DNA of 49,438 bases from Parcubacteria group bacterium (lineage in GTDB: Bacteria > Patescibacteriota > Minisyncoccia > Portnoybacterales > UBA2143), in assembly GCA_002685955.1 (NCBI GenBank), contig NYYU01000051.1:1-49438 (forward strand). The letters run 5' to 3'. The notes beneath the pieces were generated by a model. It worked only from the letters and a program-made list of their open reading frames with translations. It did not search any database and was not told the origin of the DNA. Below, piece after piece: positions 35,959-45,721 of the stretch (positions are counted from its first letter, which is position 1; each line of letters starts with the position of its first letter). A program made the translations under genes and the position numbers.

Positions 35959-36016
35959 TATCCGCCAAAGGCGGATACTGAATTTTTTAACTAAATTAGA
36001 AATTTAGAAAAAATTC
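35959..36016 (-). repeat. tRNA-adjacent bipartite palindromic element, copy A
   Basis: TATCCGCC-aaa-GGCGGATA plus AT hairpin GAATTTTTT/AAAAAATTC with inner CTAAAT-N5-ATTTAG; 4 nt from tRNA-Ile. Confidence 0.8.
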
Positions 36017-36020
36017 GTAC

Positions 36021-36095
36021 GGGCGTGTAGCTCAACGGTAGAGCGTCTAGCTTATATCTAGATGGCCGGGGGTTCGACTCCCTCCACGCCCACCA
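36021..36095 (+). tRNA. tRNA-Ile(UAU), CCA encoded
   Basis: Cloverleaf gggcgtg/cacgccc; anticodon arm tctag-ctTATat-ctaga. Confidence 0.88.
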
Positions 36096-36103
36096 GACAC
36101 TAA

Positions 36104-36177
36104 GGGCGATTAGCTCAGCTGGTTAGAGCGCTACCTCGACACGGTAGAGGTCATCCGTTCGAGTCGGATATCGCCCA
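36104..36177 (+). tRNA. tRNA-Val(GAC) with C33
   Basis: gggcgat/atcgccc; anticodon arm ctacc-tcGACac-ggtag. Confidence 0.88.
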
Positions 36178-36182
36178 CACGG

Positions 36183-36237
36183 TTTTTGTCTAAATTTTTA
36201 ATTTAGTAACAAAAATCAGTGCCCGCCTCTGGCGGGC
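36183..36237 (+). repeat. tRNA-adjacent bipartite palindromic element, copy B
   Basis: TTTTTGT-CTAAAT-tttta-ATTTAG-TA-ACAAAAA then GCCCGCC-tct-GGCGGGC; 5 nt after tRNA-Val. Confidence 0.8.
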
Positions 36238-36281
36238 TTTCACCTTGCTTTTTGGCCTAATTCCTGTTATTCTATGATCAA

Positions 36282-36353
36282 GGGCCAGTAGCTCAGTGGT
36301 AGAGCACCTGTTTTGCAATCAGGAGGTCAAGGGTCCAATTCCCTTCTGGTCCA
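36282..36353 (+). tRNA. tRNA-Ala(UGC)
   Basis: gggccag/ctggtcc with G3:U70; loop ttTGCaa. Confidence 0.92.
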
Positions 36354-36354
36354 C

Positions 36355-37044
36355 ATGGAAAAAATTATCTACCAAGATAATGATATTATTATTATTAACA
36401 AACCAGCCGGATTAACTATTCATCCGACCAAGCCAGAACAAAACAATACTTTAGTTGATCAATTAATTAAACATTATCCAGCCATAAAAAAGATTGGCGA
36501 TGACCCCTTAAGGCCTGGTATTGTCCATCGCTTAGATAAAGACACTTCTGGTTTAATTATTATCGCTAAAAGCAATAAAGCATTTAATTATTTAAAAAAA
36601 CAATTCCAGGCAAGAAAAGTAATCAAAAAATACATGGCTTTAGTTCATGGCAAAGTTAAAGATAATCAAGGAACGATTACTAAATCAATTAGTTTTTCTA
36701 AAAAGGATTACAAGAAAAGAAGCGCTCTTTTAGATGAAAAATCAAAATCAGCTTGGACTGAATACAAGATTGTAAAAAGATTTGATAATTATACTCTTTT
36801 AGAAGTTTATCTTAAAACAGGCCGAACTCATCAAATCAGAATCCATTTAAAATCAATTGGCCATCCGATTGTTGGAGATAAACAATATAAATTTAAAAGA
36901 CAAAAAACACCCCAAGGACTATCTCGGCAGTTCTTACATGCTCAATACTTGAAATTTAGAAAATCAGATGGTAAAATAGCAGAATTCAAATCAGAGTTGC
37001 CAGAAGATTTAAAAAATATTTTACTTAAAATAAATCATGGATAA
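36355..37044 (+). CDS. RluA-family 23S rRNA pseudouridine synthase
   Basis: [45 protein letters not shown]. Confidence 0.95.
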
Positions 37045-37402
37045 AATTCAAAAATTTACCAAAAAACAATTAAAAACAGATCTACCGGAGATCAGGCCTG
37101 GTTATACAGTCAAAGTCCATCAAAAGATCAAAGAAGGCGATAAACAAAGAATTCAGGTCTTTGAAGGTTTAGTTATCGCTCAAAAACACGGTTTGGGAAT
37201 TAATGGTACTATTACTGTCCGCAGAGTCACTCAAGGCATTGGCGTAGAAAGAATCTTTCCTATTCACGCGCCTTTTATTGAAAAAATAGAGGTGGTTAAA
37301 AAGCATAAAGTCAGACGAGCTAAACTCTACTATATCCGCCATAAATCAGCCAAACAAGCCCGACTCAAAGAAATTAAAACAAAATCTGATTCTAAGAAAT
37401 AA
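37037..37402 (+). CDS. rplS: 50S ribosomal protein L19
   Basis: [53 protein letters not shown]. Confidence 0.97.
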
Positions 37403-37490
37403 GCCCAGGTGGCGGAACTTGGTAGACGCGCTGCCTTGAGGGGGCAGTGACCGTACGGTCGTGCGGGTTCAAATCCCGCCCTGGGCACCA
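37403..37490 (+). tRNA. tRNA-Leu(GAG), CCA encoded
   Basis: gcccagg/ctgggc; loop ttGAGgg; long variable arm. Confidence 0.92.
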
Positions 37491-37491
37491 C

Positions 37492-37521
37492 AAAAAGACA
37501 CCTTAAAGGTGTCTTTTTGTA
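37492..37521 (+). terminator. Rho-independent terminator after tRNA-Leu
   Basis: aaaaagacaccttaaaggtgtcttttt. Confidence 0.85.
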
Positions 37522-37542
37522 TTATCCAAAAAAATTTAACAA

Positions 37543-38163
37543 CTAGGGCCAGGGATTGCCATCAACAAAGATTTGTTTAATTATTGCATTGCCGTTTTCA
37601 TCCAGGATCACTTTGGCTAATACATCTTTGTTCCAAAAATTAAAATCTCTTCCGGCTCCTTCGGGAATAAAGTATTCTTCAATGCCATAAACTATATTCA
37701 AATCATCTTCAAAGTTATCTTCGGGAATCTGCCTGACGCCCTTAATCAAAAATGATTCAGGTTTTGGTTGATCTGCTCCGCTCTTGATTGCTCCCTTTAT
37801 AAACACACTATTATTACTTGGCTTATTCTTCAAAACCTCGCTAACCCGCCACGACCCTCCGTAGCCACTCCTTAAAACTACATAAACCGTTTGGCCGTTT
37901 TGAACACTCGCATCTCGCAATTGATAAGAACTAATATTAGAAATATCATATTGAAAAGTAACATAATCACCTCGCAATGGATCCCTAGGATCAACTGGCT
38001 CAATTCTTAAAATAACTTCGGTGCCGCCGGTTAAGACGGCCAGCTTAAAAATAATCATGATTAAAATGATCAATACTTGAATTCCAATCGCTATAATAAA
38101 TTTACTCTGTTTGGTTAACATAATTTTGAAATAACCCTTCGTCTGCCTTTTTCCATAAACCAA
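37543..38163 (-). CDS. GDYXXLXY-domain protein
   Basis: DPRDPLRGDYVTFQYDIS signature. Confidence 0.85.
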   Translation of the reverse strand: MVYGKRQTKGYFKIMLTKQSKFIIAIGIQVLIILIMIIFKLAVLTGGTEVILRIEPVDPRDPLRGDYVTFQYDISNISSYQLRDASVQNGQTVYVVLRSGYGGSWRVSEVLKNKPSNNSVFIKGAIKSGADQPKPESFLIKGVRQIPEDNFEDDLNIVYGIEEYFIPEGAGRDFNFWNKDVLAKVILDENGNAIIKQIFVDGNPWP

Positions 38164-39167
38164 CCAACAACAAATAACAATATACCTGCTCCAATGAAGA
38201 AGATGCTTTTATCAAGAGATTGAAAAAACCAATCAAAATACTTAACCAATATTAATAAGAAGAGAAATATCGCGCCCAGATTAATCAATCTTTTTTCTCG
38301 CCTGATATACCCAGAAAAAATTAAACCCAATATTGCAAAGAAAATTACAATATTATAAACTACAGCCCAGAAAACCCCTGCGCTTGTAAGCTGGCGCTTT
38401 TTAACAAACATCTCAGCTCCGCTAGTAAAAAGAATAGAGCAGAACAATATCGCTAGCAAAATAACCGCCATAACCTGATATCCGGAAATTAACTTACGAC
38501 TTAATGTATAAAATAATGTTCCTATTAAGACCACGGCAAACAAAATCAATGATATACTAATCCTCCATTCTCCATAAAATTTAACATTACCATCAAGTTC
38601 ATCTAAGAATTCTAAACCAGACTGGGTTGAAAGAAAGAATAAAGCTCCGATAACAGTGATTATCCCAAATATTAAATAGACCATTGCAAACCGCTTGTAT
38701 TTTTCTTTTATTTCATGTAAATGTCCTAATACGTACAAAATCAAGAAAATTAACATCAAACCCACAAACACTGATGACATGCTAATATCCTTGCCGGCTG
38801 CCCAAAAAGCTGTTTGAGCGCCCCACCAGCCAGCAATTCCAATTAAGCTTAAACCAAGTGGCAGAACACTCTTGTAATAATAAGCGATAATCAAACCAAG
38901 TATGGAAGCAATATATAAAATAATTCGCCAAGATACAGGGCTTCCAAAATCATAATTAAAAGCTAAAAGAGTAGCGCTCAGAAAAACAATAGATAACAGA
39001 AAGAAAAACTGGCTGACCGCATCTTCCTTAGATAGAAAAATCTGTGAAAAACGATCTTCATCCTCTTCAACAACTCCTCTTTTTCTTCTAACCAACCGTC
39101 TAACAAAAGCAAAAATGCCAAAGATGACTAAACCAGCTATTATTAGAGGAAATAAAAAAGAAAGCAT
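38115..39167 (-). CDS. Polytopic membrane protein associated with GDYXXLXY/DUF2157 genes
   Basis: Multiple TMs; positioned between the GDYXXLXY and DUF2157-like genes. Confidence 0.6.
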   Translation of the reverse strand: MLSFLFPLIIAGLVIFGIFAFVRRLVRRKRGVVEEDEDRFSQIFLSKEDAVSQFFFLLSIVFLSATLLAFNYDFGSPVSWRIILYIASILGLIIAYYYKSVLPLGLSLIGIAGWWGAQTAFWAAGKDISMSSVFVGLMLIFLILYVLGHLHEIKEKYKRFAMVYLIFGIITVIGALFFLSTQSGLEFLDELDGNVKFYGEWRISISLILFAVVLIGTLFYTLSRKLISGYQVMAVILLAILFCSILFTSGAEMFVKKRQLTSAGVFWAVVYNIVIFFAILGLIFSGYIRREKRLINLGAIFLFLLILVKYFDWFFQSLDKSIFFIGAGILLFVVGWFMEKGRRRVISKLC

Positions 39168-39171
39168 ATGA

Positions 39172-39864
39172 TTAATATAAATCTTTAAATTTTTCTGGTA
39201 TTCTTTTATATATTAAAGCTCCAGAAATAAAGGTAATAATGGTAGCGGCTAAAAGTAAGAATGACGAAGTTAGTAAAAATGAATTAGCGATAGAACTGGT
39301 GAAAATATCAAATGGGTGAGCGATAATAGCAATCAAACCTAAGGGAATGGCTAAAGCAAAAAGAGAAAACTCATCAATGGCAAAAGTTATAAGAATGACT
39401 CCGATCATCCATAAAATAAATCCGTCGGGCCAATTAGCCCTGATATGGAATATCTGAGCCACTAAAAAGATTCCGGCTCCATAGATTATAGCGCCTAATA
39501 AAATCAAGGCTGTGCCTGTTTTTATCAATCCTCTTTTTTCTTTCAAATACCAACCGGCCGAATATGAAACAATCATAGACGCAACAATAATCACCACCTT
39601 TAGCCATTTATCCATAACCTGCCAATTAGCCGCCACAAAAGAAAAAATACCGGCCCCGATTAAAATAGCGCCGATGACAACGATAATTTTAATAACTCTT
39701 TTCTGAGCTTCTTCTTTTTTATCTTCTCTGGTAGCCAAAACAAAAGCTTGTTGAATATTCTCAAGCGATTGGCCCTCACTTAATAATGTTCGGTAAATAG
39801 CTTCTTTTGTTTCGCCTTGAGATAAAGAAGTTTGAATACGATTAATAATTTTCTGGTCAATCAT
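39172..39864 (-). CDS. DUF2157-like membrane protein
   Basis: GAGIFSFVAANWQVMDKWLKV characteristic region. Confidence 0.8.
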   Translation of the reverse strand: MIDQKIINRIQTSLSQGETKEAIYRTLLSEGQSLENIQQAFVLATREDKKEEAQKRVIKIIVVIGAILIGAGIFSFVAANWQVMDKWLKVVIIVASMIVSYSAGWYLKEKRGLIKTGTALILLGAIIYGAGIFLVAQIFHIRANWPDGFILWMIGVILITFAIDEFSLFALAIPLGLIAIIAHPFDIFTSSIANSFLLTSSFLLLAATIITFISGALIYKRIPEKFKDLY

Positions 39865-39889
39865 ATCTTTAGTATAACATATCCCTCAA

Positions 39890-40778
39890 TTAATAACTAA
39901 CCCGTTCTTGTCTTATTCCTTTAAGTAAATTAACAACCACCGACGCTAAAGCGGCTAAAATAAAGACCCATTGAATAGAAAAATACAAAGAAACAATAAC
40001 AACTAAAACAACCATCAAGGTTTTACCAAAATTAATAGCCATCTCTTTTAAAACAGTAAACTCATCAACATAATGCCCTTGGTCAGCCGCTGCTCCATAA
40101 GCCATATAGGCAATAACTATTTTCCTTCGTTTTTTTGAAAAAAACTGGCGCTAGGCTTCTTGCCAGCTCCAGGAAAATTTTTCTCTAGTTCGAGGAATAG
40201 TTAAATAGAAAATTCCAGAAACGGAGAAAAGAATCATGGCCAGTACAAAAAGCGCGTCAAAATTAAAGCGACTAACAATAAAACCGGCGATTAAAGGAGC
40301 AAATATTTTCATGACGGAACGGGTTGCTTCAATAATGCTTATTTGTCTGCCTCGATCTTTTTTAGTAGTGAATTTGGCAAAATCAACATGATAAGGCAGC
40401 CAATAAGCTAAACGGTAGAAAGCCAAGGTTAATAATGAAAAAGGAATTAAATACTTTAAATTGCCTTGATCAATAAAATAGAAAATTACGTAAAAAAGAA
40501 CGCCTAAAATAACACTAGTCCGTAAAGCTTTTCTAAATCCGAATTTATTTAAAAACCTGGCGCCAATCGTAAGAGTTATCGCGTATAGGAAATATCCTAA
40601 ACCATAATAGATAACTACTGCTTGAAAATTCTGATTAAAAAGTTCATATAAAAAAAATCGGCAAGAAAATGCCTAAGAGAGCGGCCGTGAGCATTATAAT
40701 AGTCTTACTCATATACAAAGAAGCAAAACCACGCGATAACGGTCTATCAAAGTATTTTTTTTCTAATTTTTTCCACAT
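39890..40778 (-). pseudogene. Decayed MFS transporter
   Basis: Three fragments: MWKKLEKKYFDRPLSRGF...IFFI (stop after a T8 run), ...LAYWLPYHVDFAKFTTKKDRGRQ...WSWQEA (TAG), then in frame RQFFSKKRRKIVIAYMAYGA... Confidence 0.75.
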
Positions 40779-40845
40779 AATCTACTATAAACTATACCAC
40801 AACTCTAGCTTTTCCCAAAAATTTCTGATATGATGGCAAGTGATT

Positions 40846-40902
40846 GTCCTCCTAAGGCGGACGCTAAAATTCTTTATAAAATTAAGGATTTTAGAGAATT
40901 TT
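40846..40902 (-). repeat. tRNA-adjacent bipartite palindromic element, copy C
   Basis: GTCCTCC-taa-GGCGGAC plus AAAATTCT...AGAATTTT with inner TAAAAT-N5-ATTTTA; 2 nt from tRNA-Val. Confidence 0.75.
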
Positions 40903-40904
40903 GC

Positions 40905-40976
40905 GGGCGGTTAGCTCAGTGGTAGAGCGTCTCGTTTACACCGAGAGGGTCGGGGGTTCGAGTCCCTCACCGCCCA
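40905..40976 (+). tRNA. tRNA-Val(UAC)
   Basis: gggcggt/accgccc; loop ttTACac. Confidence 0.93.
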
Positions 40977-40988
40977 CTGAATATATAT

Positions 40989-41072
40989 GGTGGGATGTGC
41001 CGAATTGGTAAGGCACTGGTTTCGAAAACCAGCGGGCGTAAGCCTATGCGAGTTCGAATCTCGCTCCCACCG
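40989..41072 (+). tRNA. tRNA-Ser(CGA)
   Basis: ggtggga/tcccacc; loop ttCGAaa; long variable arm. Confidence 0.92.
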
Positions 41073-41092
41073 CATAATAACTAATTAATTAA

Positions 41093-41159
41093 GGGTTCGG
41101 CAGGGTATACACCCTGCCGCCCGGGTGAATACCCGGGCGAATCCCACCCTCTCCGCCAT
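41093..41159 (+). repeat. tRNA-Ser-like 3' fragment split by a double-hairpin insertion
   Basis: gggttcg | CGGCAGGGT-atac-ACCCTGCCG / GCCCGGGT-gaat-ACCCGGGC | gaatcccaccctctccgcca. Confidence 0.7.
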
Positions 41160-41640
41160 GCTTACCATTTTAACTCAAAACCCTGTTTATCTTATTTTTC
41201 TAGGCATTTTAGCTATCCTAATCATCTGGAATATCTTTATCTACTATCATCTTTGGAGAATCAGAAAAAAACTCAAAATCTTTTTTAACGGCAAAAAAGC
41301 GTCTGACTTAGAAGGCGTGCTTTTTGAAGAAATCAAACGGCTTAAAAAAGCAGAAAATAATATTGAACAGCTTATTAAATCATCAAAGGCCTTAAAAAAA
41401 GTATCTGATCATAGCATTCAAAAAGTTGGCGTAGTTCGTTTTAATCCCTTTAAAGAAACAGGCGGCGATCAAAGTTTTGTTATTGCTTTGCTTGATTCAC
41501 ATAATAATGGCTTAATCATTTCCAGTCTTTTCACCCGCCAAGGAACCAGAATTTATAGCAAGCCGATTAAAGATGGAAAATCAAAATATGCCCTTTCCAA
41601 AGAAGAGCTCCAAGCTTTGAAAAAAGCCGGCCTTGAATAA
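41158..41640 (+). CDS. DUF4446-like protein with N-terminal TM
   Basis: VGVVRFNPFKETGGDQSFVIALLDSHNNGLIISSLFTRQGTRIYSKPI; start MLTILTQNP. Confidence 0.8.
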   Translation: MLTILTQNPVYLIFLGILAILIIWNIFIYYHLWRIRKKLKIFFNGKKASDLEGVLFEEIKRLKKAENNIEQLIKSSKALKKVSDHSIQKVGVVRFNPFKETGGDQSFVIALLDSHNNGLIISSLFTRQGTRIYSKPIKDGKSKYALSKEELQALKKAGLE

Positions 41641-41671
41641 AATGTAAACAACCAAATAAATAGAAAAAAAC

Positions 41672-41696
41672 CGGCCTGTTTTACAGCCGGTTTAAT
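41672..41696 (+). terminator. Hairpin terminator
   Basis: aaaccggcctgttttacagccggttta. Confidence 0.65.
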
Positions 41697-41892
41697 CTAA
41701 GACATCTAAAACCTCAACCTCGACGAAAATCAACTCAGGATATTTTTTTTGGACCTTTGAAGCCATTATTCTTCCTATAGTGTCTATACTCCAGCTTCCA
41801 ACGATTGTAATATCGCCATTTTCCTTTTGTTCAATCGCTAAAATACATTTTGAATATTTAGCGAATTCTTCACGTAGCTGTTGAAATTCCAT
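41692..41892 (-). CDS. Hypothetical small protein (66 aa)
   Basis: ORF with SD-like aaggaagggggc upstream of ATG. Confidence 0.5.
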   Translation of the reverse strand: MEFQQLREEFAKYSKCILAIEQKENGDITIVGSWSIDTIGRIMASKVQKKYPELIFVEVEVLDVLD

Positions 41893-42029
41893 ATTTGCCC
41901 CCTTCCTTTAACAATTCCTTAAAGCGTTTTGTCAAAGAACAATCTTACTTAATAATACATAAAATATGATTTAATCACAACATTCATTTGACCAAAACTC
42001 TAAAAAATGCTATTTTAAGCCATATAATA

Positions 42030-43538
42030 ATGTCTAAAATAAAGAAACGAAAACAGGATAATTTTCAAACTAAACCACCGGTTGTGGTCATTTTAGGCCA
42101 CGTTGACCATGGAAAAAGTTCAATCCTTGAAGCAATCAAAGACCTAAAAATCACTGAAAAAGAATCAGGCGGTATTACTCAACACATTGGCGCTTACCAA
42201 GTAGAACATCAGGATAAAAAAATAACTTTTATTGACACCCCGGGCCATGAAGCATTTTCAGCCATGCGTTCCCGAGGCGCTAAAGTAGCTGACATTGCCA
42301 TTCTTGTCGTCGCAGCCGAAGAAGGAATTAAGCCACAAACTAAAGAAGCAATCACAATTATTAAAAAAATTGGTTTGCCGGTAATCGTTGCTTTAAACAA
42401 AATTGACAAAAAAGAAGCCCAACCAGAAAGAGTCAAAGAAGAATTAGCTAAAAATGGTCTGATTGTTGAATCAACAGGCGGTCAAATTCCTTCGGTTAAT
42501 CTTTCAGCTAAAAATGGCCAAGGTATTGATGAACTTTTAGAAATGCTCGTTTTGGTAGCTGAAATAAATGAATTAAAAAGCCCCATTGACCAGCCGGCCT
42601 CTGGAGTAATTGTTGAATCACACCGCGATAATCAACGTGGAGCAACGGCTACTCTGTTGGTCAAACAAGGAACGCTCAGAGACAAAGATATTATTGGCAC
42701 TGATTCAACCATAGGTCGGGTTAAAACAATTGAAGATTTTCAATCTCAACCTATTGAAAAGGCGACTGCCTCTACTCCCGTAATTATCACCGGCCTTAAT
42801 CAAGTTCCTCAAGTAGGTGAGAAATTCTCTGTTTTTGAAACCTTAGAACAAGCCCAAATCAGGGTTGATAAAAAAACAGCCAAAAGAAAAGGTGAAAAAG
42901 AAATTTTTGTTGTTGAGCCGGATAAAAAAATCCTTAATATTATTCTCAAAGCTGACGTTCGCGGTTCTCTAGAAGCAATTAAAGAATCGTTTAAAAGTAT
43001 TCCAGCCGAAGAAGTTGTTTTAAGAATTCTAAAAGCTGAAATTGGTGATATAACTGAATCAGATATTAAGCTGGCTGAATCAGCTCGAGCTAAAATAGTT
43101 GGCTTTCGGGTTAAAGCTAGTTCTACTATCCAAGAATTAGCCCAGCAAAAAAAAGTAAAAGTTGCTCTCTTTGAAATAATCTATGAACTTATTCAAGGAA
43201 CCAGAGAACTGCTTTCTAAACTTCTAAAACCGGAAATAATCAAAAATGTTTTAGGACAACTTAAAGTCCTAGCCTTATTCCGATCAGAGAAAGATAGACA
43301 GATTATTGGAGGCAAGGTAATTAATGGCCAGATTAAACAAAGCGCGTCACTTAATGTTGTTAGGGCTGATGAAAAAATAGGGCAAGGTAAGATAATAAAA
43401 CTGCAGCGTGATAAAAAAGATGCTGAAGAGGTAAATAAAAATCAGGAATGCGGCATCCTATTTAAAGGCACAACCACTATTGAAAAAGGAGATATTTTAG
43501 AAGCATATGAAGAAGAAAAGAAGAAACGAGAAATATAA
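42030..43538 (+). CDS. infB: Translation initiation factor IF-2 (lacking N-terminal domain)
   Basis: VVVILGHVDHGKSSILEAI; IDTPGHEAF; NKIDK; start at MSKIKKRKQDNF. Confidence 0.96.
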   Translation: MSKIKKRKQDNFQTKPPVVVILGHVDHGKSSILEAIKDLKITEKESGGITQHIGAYQVEHQDKKITFIDTPGHEAFSAMRSRGAKVADIAILVVAAEEGIKPQTKEAITIIKKIGLPVIVALNKIDKKEAQPERVKEELAKNGLIVESTGGQIPSVNLSAKNGQGIDELLEMLVLVAEINELKSPIDQPASGVIVESHRDNQRGATATLLVKQGTLRDKDIIGTDSTIGRVKTIEDFQSQPIEKATASTPVIITGLNQVPQVGEKFSVFETLEQAQIRVDKKTAKRKGEKEIFVVEPDKKILNIILKADVRGSLEAIKESFKSIPAEEVVLRILKAEIGDITESDIKLAESARAKIVGFRVKASSTIQELAQQKKVKVALFEIIYELIQGTRELLSKLLKPEIIKNVLGQLKVLALFRSEKDRQIIGGKVINGQIKQSASLNVVRADEKIGQGKIIKLQRDKKDAEEVNKNQECGILFKGTTTIEKGDILEAYEEEKKKREI

Positions 43539-43541
43539 TGT

Positions 43542-43874
43542 ATGTCTCAAAGAATTCAAAAAATCAATGAACTATTGCGTCATGAGGTAAGCCAATTACT
43601 TCTCAAAGAAATAGATTTTGATGGAATTTTAGTAACTATTATCAGCGTTGATACCGCGCCAAATCTGAGCCAGGCAAAAATTAAAATCACAACCATACCA
43701 ACACAAAGAAGCGAACGAGCTCTCAGGTTTATAAATAAAGATATTTATCAAATTCAACAGCAACTTAACAAAAGATTAAATCTGAAATTTGTACCTAAGC
43801 TTATATTTGAAATTGATAAACTTGAAGAAAAAGCCCAGAGAATTGAAAAAATTCTTACTAACCCAAAATCTTGA
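43542..43874 (+). CDS. rbfA: Ribosome-binding factor A
   Basis: MSQRIQKINELLRHEVSQLL...PKLIFEIDKLEEKAQRIEKIL; directly downstream of infB. Confidence 0.93.
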   Translation: MSQRIQKINELLRHEVSQLLLKEIDFDGILVTIISVDTAPNLSQAKIKITTIPTQRSERALRFINKDIYQIQQQLNKRLNLKFVPKLIFEIDKLEEKAQRIEKILTNPKS

Positions 43875-43910
43875 AGATTTAAGGATATAATGGTATAGTT
43901 TTTTTCAGAG

Positions 43911-43984
43911 GGTCACGTGGCCGAGTGGTTAGGCAACGGTCTGCAAAACCGTTTACACCGGTTCGAATCCGGTCGTGACCTCCA
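43911..43984 (+). tRNA. tRNA-Cys(GCA), CCA encoded
   Basis: ggtcacg/cgtgacc; loop ctGCAaa; U73. Confidence 0.94.
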
Positions 43985-44067
43985 GCCGTGGTGGTGGAAT
44001 TGGTATACACGCACGACTTAAAATCGTGTCCCTTTATGGGATGTGGGTTCGAGTCCCACCCGCGGCA
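43985..44067 (+). tRNA. tRNA-Leu(UAA)
   Basis: gccgtgg/ccgcggc; loop ctTAAaa; long variable arm. Confidence 0.93.
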
Positions 44068-44071
44068 CAAA

Positions 44072-44104
44072 TAAAAAGACCCCGTTACAACGGGATCTTT
44101 TTAA
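44072..44104 (+). terminator. Rho-independent terminator after tRNA-Leu
   Basis: aaaaagaccccgttacaacgggatctttttaa. Confidence 0.8.
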
Positions 44105-44592
44105 GTTGAGAGCACTTCTACTTTTATATACTTGATTCCAAACTGTTTGGCTTGCTCGCGAGTAGTAAACCAAATGTCGATTTTGTGGCTATTGCGCAGG
44201 GCCATTCGGTCCTCAACCACGAAAATTTTATCTCCATACATATCAGGGAAACGAACTCTGGTACCAAACCGTAAGAAGTTAGAAGCCACGATACCGTCAC
44301 GGACATGAGATCCTGAAGCGGTAATAAATGGCGTTGAGTCGGTCTGATCTATAGTAGAAGAATAAGCCGTTACCACAACCCATCGACTATAATTAACCTC
44401 GGCCATATCGGGGTTAGACGATTGAATCAAGGCCTGTCCCTGAATGGTAGCTAATTGATCACCTGGAAATAAGATTATTTCCTGAGTTGAATCTAAGTTA
44501 TCAAAGATATCTCCGTAACCAGGCAAGAGTAAGTTTGAGATCAAACTAACTAAAGCAAAAGAAGCTGAAACCTTAGAATTTGTAGTATACAT
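44101..44592 (-). CDS. 3D-domain secreted protein
   Basis: WVVVTAYSSTIDQTD...GIVASNFLRFGTRVRFPDMYGDKIFVVEDR...KIDIWF. Confidence 0.85.
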   Translation of the reverse strand: MYTTNSKVSASFALVSLISNLLLPGYGDIFDNLDSTQEIILFPGDQLATIQGQALIQSSNPDMAEVNYSRWVVVTAYSSTIDQTDSTPFITASGSHVRDGIVASNFLRFGTRVRFPDMYGDKIFVVEDRMALRNSHKIDIWFTTREQAKQFGIKYIKVEVLST

Positions 44593-44753
44593 ATTATTTA
44601 TTTAGTTAAGCAAATAAAAAATCCCCAATTGGGATTATCCATATACTAGCATACTACAATTAATTTGTCAAGGATTTTGGGTAATGTCCATAGACATATG
44701 GCGGTTTTTCTCCTAAGCAATTAAGCTTGGGGGTATGTCTACAAACATGCCTA

Positions 44754-44864
44754 AAACAATTAAAGAAGAAGATTAAAGTCTGGAATGAACAATACAATGA
44801 TTTAGAACATTGCGGACTGAATGGAAAAACTCCAAATGAAATGTTAAAATTAATTAATCATTAA
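44754..44864 (+). pseudogene. C-terminal remnant of an integrase-core (rve) IS transposase
   Basis: Frame translation KQLKKKIKVWNEQYNDLEHCGLNGKTPNEMLKLINH*; typical IS481/IS3-type C-terminus. Confidence 0.65.
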
Positions 44865-44911
44865 ACCGACAAATGTCTGTGTTTAAAACATTTGACGATT
44901 TTTAACAATGG

Positions 44912-44983
44912 AGCGGGTAGAGGGAGTCGAACCCTCGTCCTTTGATTGGCAACCAAATATAATAACCGCTATACGATACCCGC
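44912..44983 (-). tRNA. tRNA-Gly(GCC), CCA encoded
   Basis: Reverse complement GCGGGTA/TACCCGC; loop ttGCCaa; U73. Confidence 0.92.
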
Positions 44984-45038
44984 CTTCGCCAGCCATAGCT
45001 GGCTTCGGCGGGGCGAAGCCCGCTGAAACCAGCGAAGG
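44983..45038. repeat. Cruciform element between tRNA-Gly and tRNA-Phe
   Basis: Outer CCTTCGC/GCGAAGG enclosing CCAGC-cata-GCTGG, GCTTCG...CGAAGC and CGCTG-aaac-CAGCG arms (some mutually exclusive at the bases). Confidence 0.75.
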
Positions 45039-45046
45039 ATGGATTG

Positions 45047-45118
45047 TGCCGAGGGGCGGATTTGAACCGCCGACACCACGATTTTCAGTCGTGTGCTCTA
45101 CCCCTGAGCTACCTCGGC
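45047..45118 (-). tRNA. tRNA-Phe(GAA)
   Basis: Reverse complement GCCGAGG/CCTCGGC; loop ctGAAaa. Confidence 0.93.
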
Positions 45119-45131
45119 ATATATTCAATTG

Positions 45132-45205
45132 TGGACCCAAAGGGATTTGAACCCTTGACCTTCTGACTGCCAGTCAGACGCGCTAACCAACTGCGCCATG
45201 GGCCC
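45132..45205 (-). tRNA. tRNA-Ala(GGC)
   Basis: Reverse complement GGGCCCA/TGGGTCC with G3:U70; loop ctGGCag. Confidence 0.92.
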
Positions 45206-45207
45206 GC

Positions 45208-45267
45208 AAATTTTCTCTAAATCTCTGATTTAGTAAGAAAATTTAGTGCTCGCCTCAGGCGAGCACT
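45208..45267 (+). repeat. tRNA-adjacent bipartite palindromic element, copy D
   Basis: AAATTTTCT-CTAAAT-ctctg-ATTTAG-TA-AGAAAATTT then AGTGCTCGCC-tca-GGCGAGCACT; 2 nt from the tRNA-Ala 5' end. Confidence 0.82.
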
Positions 45268-45327
45268 GACTTCTATTATAACAAAAACAAGTTTTTGATA
45301 GAAGTCGTGCGTCCGCCTCCGGCGGAC
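45268..45327 (+). repeat. Bipartite palindromic element, copy E (tandem to D)
   Basis: GACTTCTAT...ATAGAAGTC with inner AAAAAC-aa-GTTTTT, then GTCCGCC-tcc-GGCGGAC. Confidence 0.75.
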
Positions 45328-45578
45328 CACCCACCTGAAGCAAGTAATATCTCATCTAATAATTTCCGACCTCGTCCAGATTTTAAAAACTTTTCCCTTT
45401 TTTCTACTATTAATTTATCAAAATACTCTTCAAAGTATATTAATTCTAATGGTCTTCGTTTGCAAGTTGATTTTACCTTTCCTCTATTATGCTCTTCTAA
45501 TCTTCTTTCTATATCTTTAGTATATCCAATATATCGTCTGTTATCTTTTTTACTTTTAAGAACATATAATTTATACAT
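45276..45578 (-). CDS. GIY-YIG nuclease family protein
   Basis: MYKLYVLKSKKDNRRYIGYTKDIERRLEEHNRGKVKSTCKRRPLELIYFEEYFDKLIVEKREKFLKSGRGRK; C-terminal tail reads through copy E. Confidence 0.88.
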   Translation of the reverse strand: MYKLYVLKSKKDNRRYIGYTKDIERRLEEHNRGKVKSTCKRRPLELIYFEEYFDKLIVEKREKFLKSGRGRKLLDEILLASGGWSAGGGRTTSIKNLFLL

Positions 45579-45587
45579 TTGTTTGTA

Positions 45588-45648
45588 GCCCGCCTGAGGC
45601 GGGCATAATATTTGTTGACCAATCGCTCTGCTCTTGGACAAATATTAT
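45588..45648 (-). repeat. tRNA-adjacent bipartite palindromic element, copy F (inverted relative to E)
   Basis: GCCCGCC-tga-GGCGGGC then ATAATATTTGT...ACAAATATTAT (11 bp) with inner CCAA...TTGG; 1 nt from the tRNA-Arg 3' end. Confidence 0.8.
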
Positions 45649-45649
45649 G

Positions 45650-45721
45650 TGCCCCTGATAGGAGTCGAACCTATATTTACGGCTTAGGAGTCCGTAGTTC
45701 TATCCGTTGAACTACAGGGGC
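45650..45721 (-). tRNA. tRNA-Arg(CCU)
   Basis: Reverse complement GCCCCTG/CAGGGGC; loop ctCCTaa (A31/G39 mismatch). Confidence 0.9.

Follow-up and report, generated by a model that had tools for sequence, protein, structure and literature searches.

What kind of element recurs beside the tRNA genes of a small patescibacterial genome, with one end set almost exactly on the gene boundary? The question is raised by a 49,438-nt stretch of DNA (the window; GenBank assembly GCA_002685955.1, contig NYYU01000051.1), which is contig 51 of the 919-kb draft genome of a Parcubacteria group bacterium. The FtsH of this genome is 75-81% identical to that of the closest named Candidatus Portnoybacteria contigs, which places it near that group. 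Six copies (A to F) of an element made of an AT-rich hairpin and a GC-rich palindrome had been described in the window in an initial annotation based on the letters alone. The analysis reported here indicates that these copies belong to a new family of palindromic elements, modular in build and with GIY-YIG nuclease genes as cargo; they probably represent mobile-looking DNA elements of one Patescibacteria class that insert at gene ends and leave the genes whole.

The positions of the six AT hairpins and GC palindromes were confirmed (Table 1), and copies A-F fold as had been described, with z scores of -4.0 to -7.7 against dinucleotide shuffles. Their common architecture held overall, except that the inner stem of copy F is CCAA...TTGG with a 3-nt bulge; a GC palindrome is present in every copy, although the one in copy C contains a mismatch. 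ARAGORN located tRNA-Ile at 36021-36095, tRNA-Val(GAC) at 36104-36178, tRNA-Val(UAC) at 40905-40977 and, on the minus strand, tRNA-Ala(GGC) at 45131-45205 and tRNA-Arg(CCU) at 45649-45721. Five of the six copies do adjoin a tRNA gene, and the distances, given originally as 1-5 nt, shrink once the conserved closing pair (RC...A-GY) is counted, to 2 nt for copy A and 0 nt for copies B, C, D and F. If elements were placed at random in the 5,185 intergenic bases of the window, such adjacency would have a probability of 0.86% per element, and adjacency of at least five of six has P = 2.8e-10, far from what chance would give. Copy E, by contrast, is not in simple tandem with D as had been thought. 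With R1, a covariance model built from the six window copies, its AT hairpin scores better reversed (48.7 bits on the minus strand, 46.0 on the plus strand), and since E is oriented opposite to D and uses the GC palindrome of D, the two copies together form an AT-GC-AT unit. Moreover, an open reading frame (ORF) encoding a GIY-YIG nuclease, which had been overlooked, fills the space between E and F (locus L176; inverted-repeat score 12 versus a null maximum of 9). The interval from tRNA-Ala to tRNA-Arg therefore consists of hairpin D, a palindrome, hairpin E, a palindrome, the GIY-YIG gene, a palindrome and hairpin F.

Further copies, which the initial annotation had predicted, were found in the same genome and in its relatives. 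With R1 the four best copies reached E<1e-12 genome-wide, and more copies of the window's own genome were found beside mraZ, nusG, rplK, rpsM, rpsN and trmD (neighbour names being assigned from the beginning of the translation). A second covariance model, R2, was built from 30 AT hairpins of several genomes; its top match in this genome is copy A (35971-36018, minus strand, 66.5 bits). R2 matches were found in at least 17 of 23 genomes of the order, in at least 46 of 188 genomes of the class (E<=1e-6) and, among 192 genomes sampled from the phylum (E<=1e-7), in at least one besides the window's own; the counts of these larger searches are lower bounds because about 30 candidates per genome were scored. 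The hairpin family is nearly confined to one class of Patescibacteria and occurs almost nowhere else in the phylum. It is a short, intergenic, multi-copy palindromic repeat, and it is unnamed, as had been supposed: Rfam gave no match to it, only tRNAs exceeding the gathering scores, and a search limited to a library of open-access papers yielded no description of such a hairpin architecture in Patescibacteria.

The AT hairpin module has an outer stem of about 9 bp, a 2-nt bulge on one strand and an inner stem of 6 bp; it is closed by an R-C/G-Y pair with a bulged base and is followed by the GC palindrome. The proposal that stem variation is compensatory, structure being kept over sequence, was confirmed on the 30-sequence alignment, in which 95.2% of cells are paired. 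Double changes were seen in 12 of 17 pairs, with 97 double-change cells and no more than about 6 one-sided changes; 0 of 500 shuffles came as high. Variation is absent or almost absent at some positions (TTT, AAA), and others show all four Watson-Crick pairs.

The AT end docks at tRNA 5' or 3' ends, at start codons (often at distance zero), at Shine-Dalgarno sequences and at stop codons. The tRNA-end targeting proposed earlier thus stands in that tRNA ends are used as docking sites, but they are one site type among several, and targeting of tRNAs only was rejected since most hits adjoin protein-gene starts. Among 98 unique order-level hits, 30 were at an ATG (nearly all at distance 0), 13 at a start with a Shine-Dalgarno sequence, 11 at a tRNA 3' end and 5 at a tRNA 5' end; 50 more hits from outside the model building included 7 at an ATG, 8 at Shine-Dalgarno starts, 11 at other starts, 4 at tRNA ends and 3 at stop codons. 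In 139 of 148 hits, a pyrimidine occupies the first position beyond the model. This edge base of the gene pairs with the element in 126 of 145 hits (68 expected) and the next pair forms in only 11 of 145, so that the last base of the helix is precisely the outermost base of the gene, such as the A of an ATG start codon. One protein-gene site (...TTGC[CT]TTTGTATG[CT]/GCCAT...) is occupied at L282, L294, L297 and L300 (genomes G089, G111, G074 and G069), and this repeated occupancy suggests site-specific insertion. Another copy forms an insertion in the P3 region of an RNase P RNA that is complete in other respects (L035:1474-1937; RF00010, 166 bits); rnpB did not prove to be a common hairpin site, as this copy was the only one found within the set scanned with R2.

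Larger units are built from the same modules. The usual full form runs from the stop codon of one gene through hairpin 2, a central palindrome and hairpin 1 to the ATG of the next gene, and complete units can span the whole stop-codon-to-ATG space between neighbours. Successive gene junctions in the spc operons of G022 and G030 carry an identical unit type, with hairpin 2 TAAAGGGCTTT..., palindrome arms ACCCCGTTAGAT / ATCTAACGGGGT and a hairpin 1 ending GGC/ATG. Among 35 ATG-type copies, 22 have a hairpin 2 beginning AAAGGGCTTT or a near variant, with the upstream stop codon at its base in 15. A GIY-YIG gene was found at the unit centre in four genomes of four families (L165, L178, L237 and L296), and the proteins of L237 and L178, which come from different families, are 80% identical. 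Units are known with and without this gene, so that longer relatives with the same ends do exist: the mraZ site holds a plain palindrome in the window's own genome (L011) and a GIY-YIG gene in G002 (L165), and G007 has hairpins at both tRNAs of the tRNA-Ala/tRNA-Arg site without the GIY-YIG gene that the window carries there. Inverted repeats flank 19 of 28 GIY-YIG ORFs versus 9 of 83 control ORFs (p=3e-7), and 20 of 29 in a second sample, a few loci being common to both. In another family, locus L285 repeats the window-like order of tRNA, AT hairpin, GC palindrome and GIY-YIG gene. GIY-YIG as an obligatory neighbour was rejected, R1 and R2 hits lying beside only a minority of GIY-YIG loci. 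The centre X of about 98 bp in G022 was also rejected as a visible GIY-YIG deletion, as it had no match to GIY-YIG loci.

Comparison of matching loci, which the initial annotation had proposed, revealed presence and absence among relatives, as in miniature inverted-repeat transposable elements (MITEs). In L054 and L055, no copy A lies between ftsH and tRNA-Ile, and an ordinary terminator stands in L054 in the place of copy B. Copy C is missing at L054 and L048, the tRNA-Val(UAC) leader being without it in L054 and G004; within one genus, the rplE-rpsN junction is occupied in G002 and empty in G008. Together with the repeated units and the cargo gene, this bears out the suggestion of a MITE- or REP-like element. 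Moreover, in one subfamily, termed CCCGA, the element separates a complete gene from a partial copy of the same gene end. In the duplicated topA start, 7 of 9 codons differ synonymously and 0 non-synonymously; in the rplK end, 9 of 11 codons are synonymously different, again with 0 non-synonymous changes; and in the gene end FDHYEEVPNN[VI]AEL[IN]KEGKK the figures are 11 of 20 and 2. Further duplications across an element involve the tpiA start, the rpmG end and a partial tRNA-Ser or tRNA-Glu beside the full tRNA. When left and right flanks of 141 hits were compared, 13 lay above the 99% null at the DNA level and 13 at the protein level, most of them from the CCCGA subfamily and a few being simply two similar tRNAs; among flanks of GIY-YIG genes, 9 of 53 were above null, including an N-terminal duplication in L373.

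Taken together, these observations are probably best accommodated by the following scheme. The basic module is the AT-rich hairpin followed by the GC palindrome, the central palindrome can house a GIY-YIG nuclease gene, and solo copies of hairpin and palindrome would be reduced derivatives of complete units. Units would enter conserved genes or settle at their ends (tRNAs, ribosomal-protein genes, tpiA, topA, rnpB), the gene staying intact; in the CCCGA subfamily this is visible as a full gene on one side and a partial, synonymously diverged copy of its end on the other, as though a replacement terminus had come with the element, a pattern from which we infer, direction included, insertion within the gene and delivery of a new terminus. 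Such delivery would also account for the match between the base of the hairpin and the edge of the gene. The mobile-like DNA nature of the family is well supported, and GIY-YIG-driven homing of its units is plausible but unproven. A more far-reaching version, possible though doubtful, is a natural bacterial home-and-rescue system, in which palindrome-housed GIY-YIG units would cut conserved gene ends and tRNA genes of Patescibacteria, insert, and deliver a synonymously diverged, non-target terminus that restores the gene, with the hairpin edges folding the inserted DNA aside where it meets the gene.

Several observations weigh against interpreting the family as gene-end-inserting mobile DNA. 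The boundary rule left 31 of the 98 and 17 of the 50 hits unclassified; the gene-end duplications come mainly from the CCCGA subfamily, and none was detected at the copies in the window; and no clear short exact target-site duplication was seen, in a measurement that was not systematic. The majority of solo copies carry no nuclease gene themselves, which also holds for most copies in the window, and most of the GIY-YIG genes lack an AT hairpin next to them. The hairpin shape is strongly kept across families, which could reflect a function. Active mobility, cutting by GIY-YIG as its driver and an origin of the window copies by this route are what we infer from sequence comparison.

The exact docking at tRNA ends and start codons, the position of copy C in a transcribed tRNA leader, between the promoter region and tRNA-Val(UAC), the strongly covarying pairing and the sharp end of the helix at the gene edge would also fit cis-acting RNA elements, such as processing sites, insulators or stabilisers, placed at RNA or gene boundaries (e.g., pre-tRNA ends or start codons). 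The mispairs argue otherwise: where the direction of transcription is known, 13 G.U versus 15 A.C were counted in about 1,626 cells, with the caveat that the covariance model mildly favours G.T over A.C on the match strand, while control tRNA stems have 64 G.U in 1,282 pairs (5.0%). Covariation tolerant of G.U in the RNA sense was thus not found in these cells, and since G.U is as rare as A.C, unlike in tRNA stems, the hairpins do not seem to be maintained as RNA helices in the usual manner. In addition, copies at 5' and at 3' ends face transcription in opposite directions, which would make the RNA of one set the complement of that of the other; matching tRNA loci of relatives lack the copies; and some units enclose a nuclease gene. 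The insulator or processing role raised initially is therefore not borne out, and RNA elements of this kind are regarded as unlikely.

Bulged hairpins with a second palindrome recall the end hairpins of REP or IS200/IS605 elements, which would be moved by a Y1 (HUH) transposase recognising them, and Y1 genes are present in 10 of 15 genomes tested. However, all that the window's own genome holds of Y1 is a fragment that scores below the cut-off and contains a stop codon, the element-bearing genomes G005, G014, G017, G022 and G049 have no Y1 match, and a convincing hairpin was found at only 1 of 19 Y1 loci (L143), about 750 nt from the Y1 match; Y1 as a general partner is not supported, and this origin is very improbable. 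One might also think of common intrinsic terminators, or of palindromes arising by chance in an AT-rich genome, because several GC palindromes precede T-rich AT-stem sequence and score as terminator-like, but these tails are arms of AT hairpins, and three of the copies (A, C and D) are located 5' of a tRNA gene. The E-values of the four best copies with R1 contradict this explanation, as do class-wide conservation of primary sequence and covariation, and it is given very little credence. The asymmetric one-strand bulges and the stems variable in sequence and conserved in structure also resemble attC-like single-strand recombination sites of integron cassettes. An integron integrase above the cut-off was found in 0 of 15 genomes, with no match in the window's own genome even at E<=1e-3, and no cassette arrays were seen; attC identity is largely refuted by this search and hardly credible.

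Other palindromic sequences were observed alongside these. In the window, a different palindromic repeat (CGCCTTCGCCAGCCATAGCTGGCTTCGGCGGGGCGAAGCC) lies between tRNA-Gly and tRNA-Phe (44984-45045), and two adjacent strong GC hairpins (CGGCAGGGTATACACCCTGCCG and CCCGGGTGAATACCCGGG) directly follow tRNA-Ser(CGA) (41098-41137). The own genome carries another GIY-YIG gene about 40 nt upstream of rnpB (L346, G000:C32:8017-8229). At L055:3090-3560, a possibly frameshifted GIY-YIG gene interrupts the T loop of a tRNA-Val-like sequence; a complete tRNA-Val comes next, and then another tRNA fragment, in which the palindrome CCCCGCAGTACTGCGGGG replaces the anticodon arm. Palindromic arms with a complete tRNA-Thr in the loop were found at L226:1196-1400 (CCCCGTTAGA...TCTAACGGGG) and L304:640-840 (GGTAAAATTTGCC...GGCAAATTTTGGC), as if tRNA genes may also serve as cargo. 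Other palindromic spacer families (e.g., CACGAATTTCACGAAT, AAATGTAAAATTAAAA and CAGTTTGTCAGTT), often spanning stop to start, occur at the rplE-rpsN, rpsN-rpsH and rpsH-rplF junctions of many relatives (L248-L267).

Table 1. Hairpins, palindromes and nuclease gene of the six-copy element in the window.
Feature	Position	Strand	Remarks
Copy A, AT hairpin	35977..36018	-	2-nt bulge and closing pair; base 2 nt from tRNA-Ile 5' end
Copy A, GC palindrome TATCCGCC-AAA-GGCGGATA	35959..35977	.	
Copy B, AT hairpin	36179..36220	+	0 nt from tRNA-Val(GAC) 3' end; R1 80.8 bits, R2 65.8 bits
Copy B, GC palindrome GCCCGCC-TCT-GGCGGGC	36221..36237	.	
Copy C, AT hairpin	40863..40904	-	0 nt from tRNA-Val(UAC) 5' end; R1 74.3 bits
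Copy C, imperfect GC palindrome GTCCTCCTAAGGCGGAC	40846..40862	.	
Copy D, AT hairpin	45206..45247	+	0 nt from tRNA-Ala(GGC) 5' end; R1 79.6 bits
GC palindrome common to D and E, AGTGCTCGCC-TCA-GGCGAGCACT	45245..45267	.	
Copy E, AT hairpin, opposite to D (AT-GC-AT unit)	45265..45308	-	R1 48.7 bits, R2 48.8 bits on minus strand
Copy E, GC palindrome GTCCGCC-TCC-GGCGGAC	45311..45327	.	3' end of GIY-YIG ORF reads through
GIY-YIG nuclease ORF between GC palindromes E and F	45276..45578	-	PF01541 E=5.3e-14
Copy F, GC palindrome GCCCGCC-TGA-GGCGGGC	45588..45604	.	about 10 nt upstream of GIY-YIG start codon
Copy F, AT hairpin	45605..45648	-	0 nt from tRNA-Arg(CCU) 3' end; R1 59.2 bits

The family accounts for palindromic spacers inside ribosomal-protein and tRNA operons of Patescibacteria, and it supplies a setting for GIY-YIG genes whose spread in the rRNA of the candidate phyla radiation (CPR) was called outside homing (PMC11270868). 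It also carries a warning for gene callers, since annotated C-termini and GIY-YIG tails can extend into the hairpins. Patescibacteria have tiny genomes that are thought to be streamlined. If the proposed reading is true, they would own a widespread mobile element and provide an example from nature, open to testing, in which a selfish element replaces gene ends.

Among known systems, an endonuclease element in the mitochondrial atp6 gene of Allomyces replaces a gene end, and synthetic home-and-rescue designs use the concept of an insertion plus a replacement gene terminus. The present family would resemble both in combining insertion at a conserved gene with a replacement terminus that keeps the gene working, a likeness drawn here from sequence only. 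To our knowledge, gene-end-replacing endonuclease elements have not previously been linked to short hairpin elements in bacteria. REP, BIME and REPIN sequences with their RAYT transposases share with the family bulged palindromes, a high copy number in some genomes and genome-specific variants, whereas the present family has no consistent Y1 transposase partner. Rickettsia palindromic elements (RPE), ERIC, NEMIS/Correia, RUP and YPAL are likewise short stem-loop repeats found in intergenic regions and in genes. RPE have been reported in M1 RNA and tmRNA genes (PMC2229807), and the copy in P3 (L035) is a similar insertion in RNase P RNA. Compared by description, the present family differs from RPE-type repeats in its two- or three-hairpin modular unit, gene-edge docking, nuclease cargo, gene-end duplication and class-wide occurrence in Patescibacteria. 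Fungal mitochondria contain double-hairpin elements (Paquin et al. 2000, cited in PMC5910586), which also consist of two tandem hairpins and were proposed to be mobile; the organisms differ, and GIY-YIG cargo inside a palindrome and docking at an ATG or tRNA edge are features of the bacterial family. In CPR rRNA genes, insertion sequences with GIY-YIG genes outside group I/II introns have been reported together with numerous uncharacterised short insertions, located at stem-loop tops or bases, and that study, which covered rRNA genes only, found no homing context for GIY-YIG (PMC11270868). Here, GIY-YIG genes lie in palindromes beside tRNA and ribosomal-protein genes, and the GIY-YIG genes and short insertions of CPR rRNA may be related to the present family.

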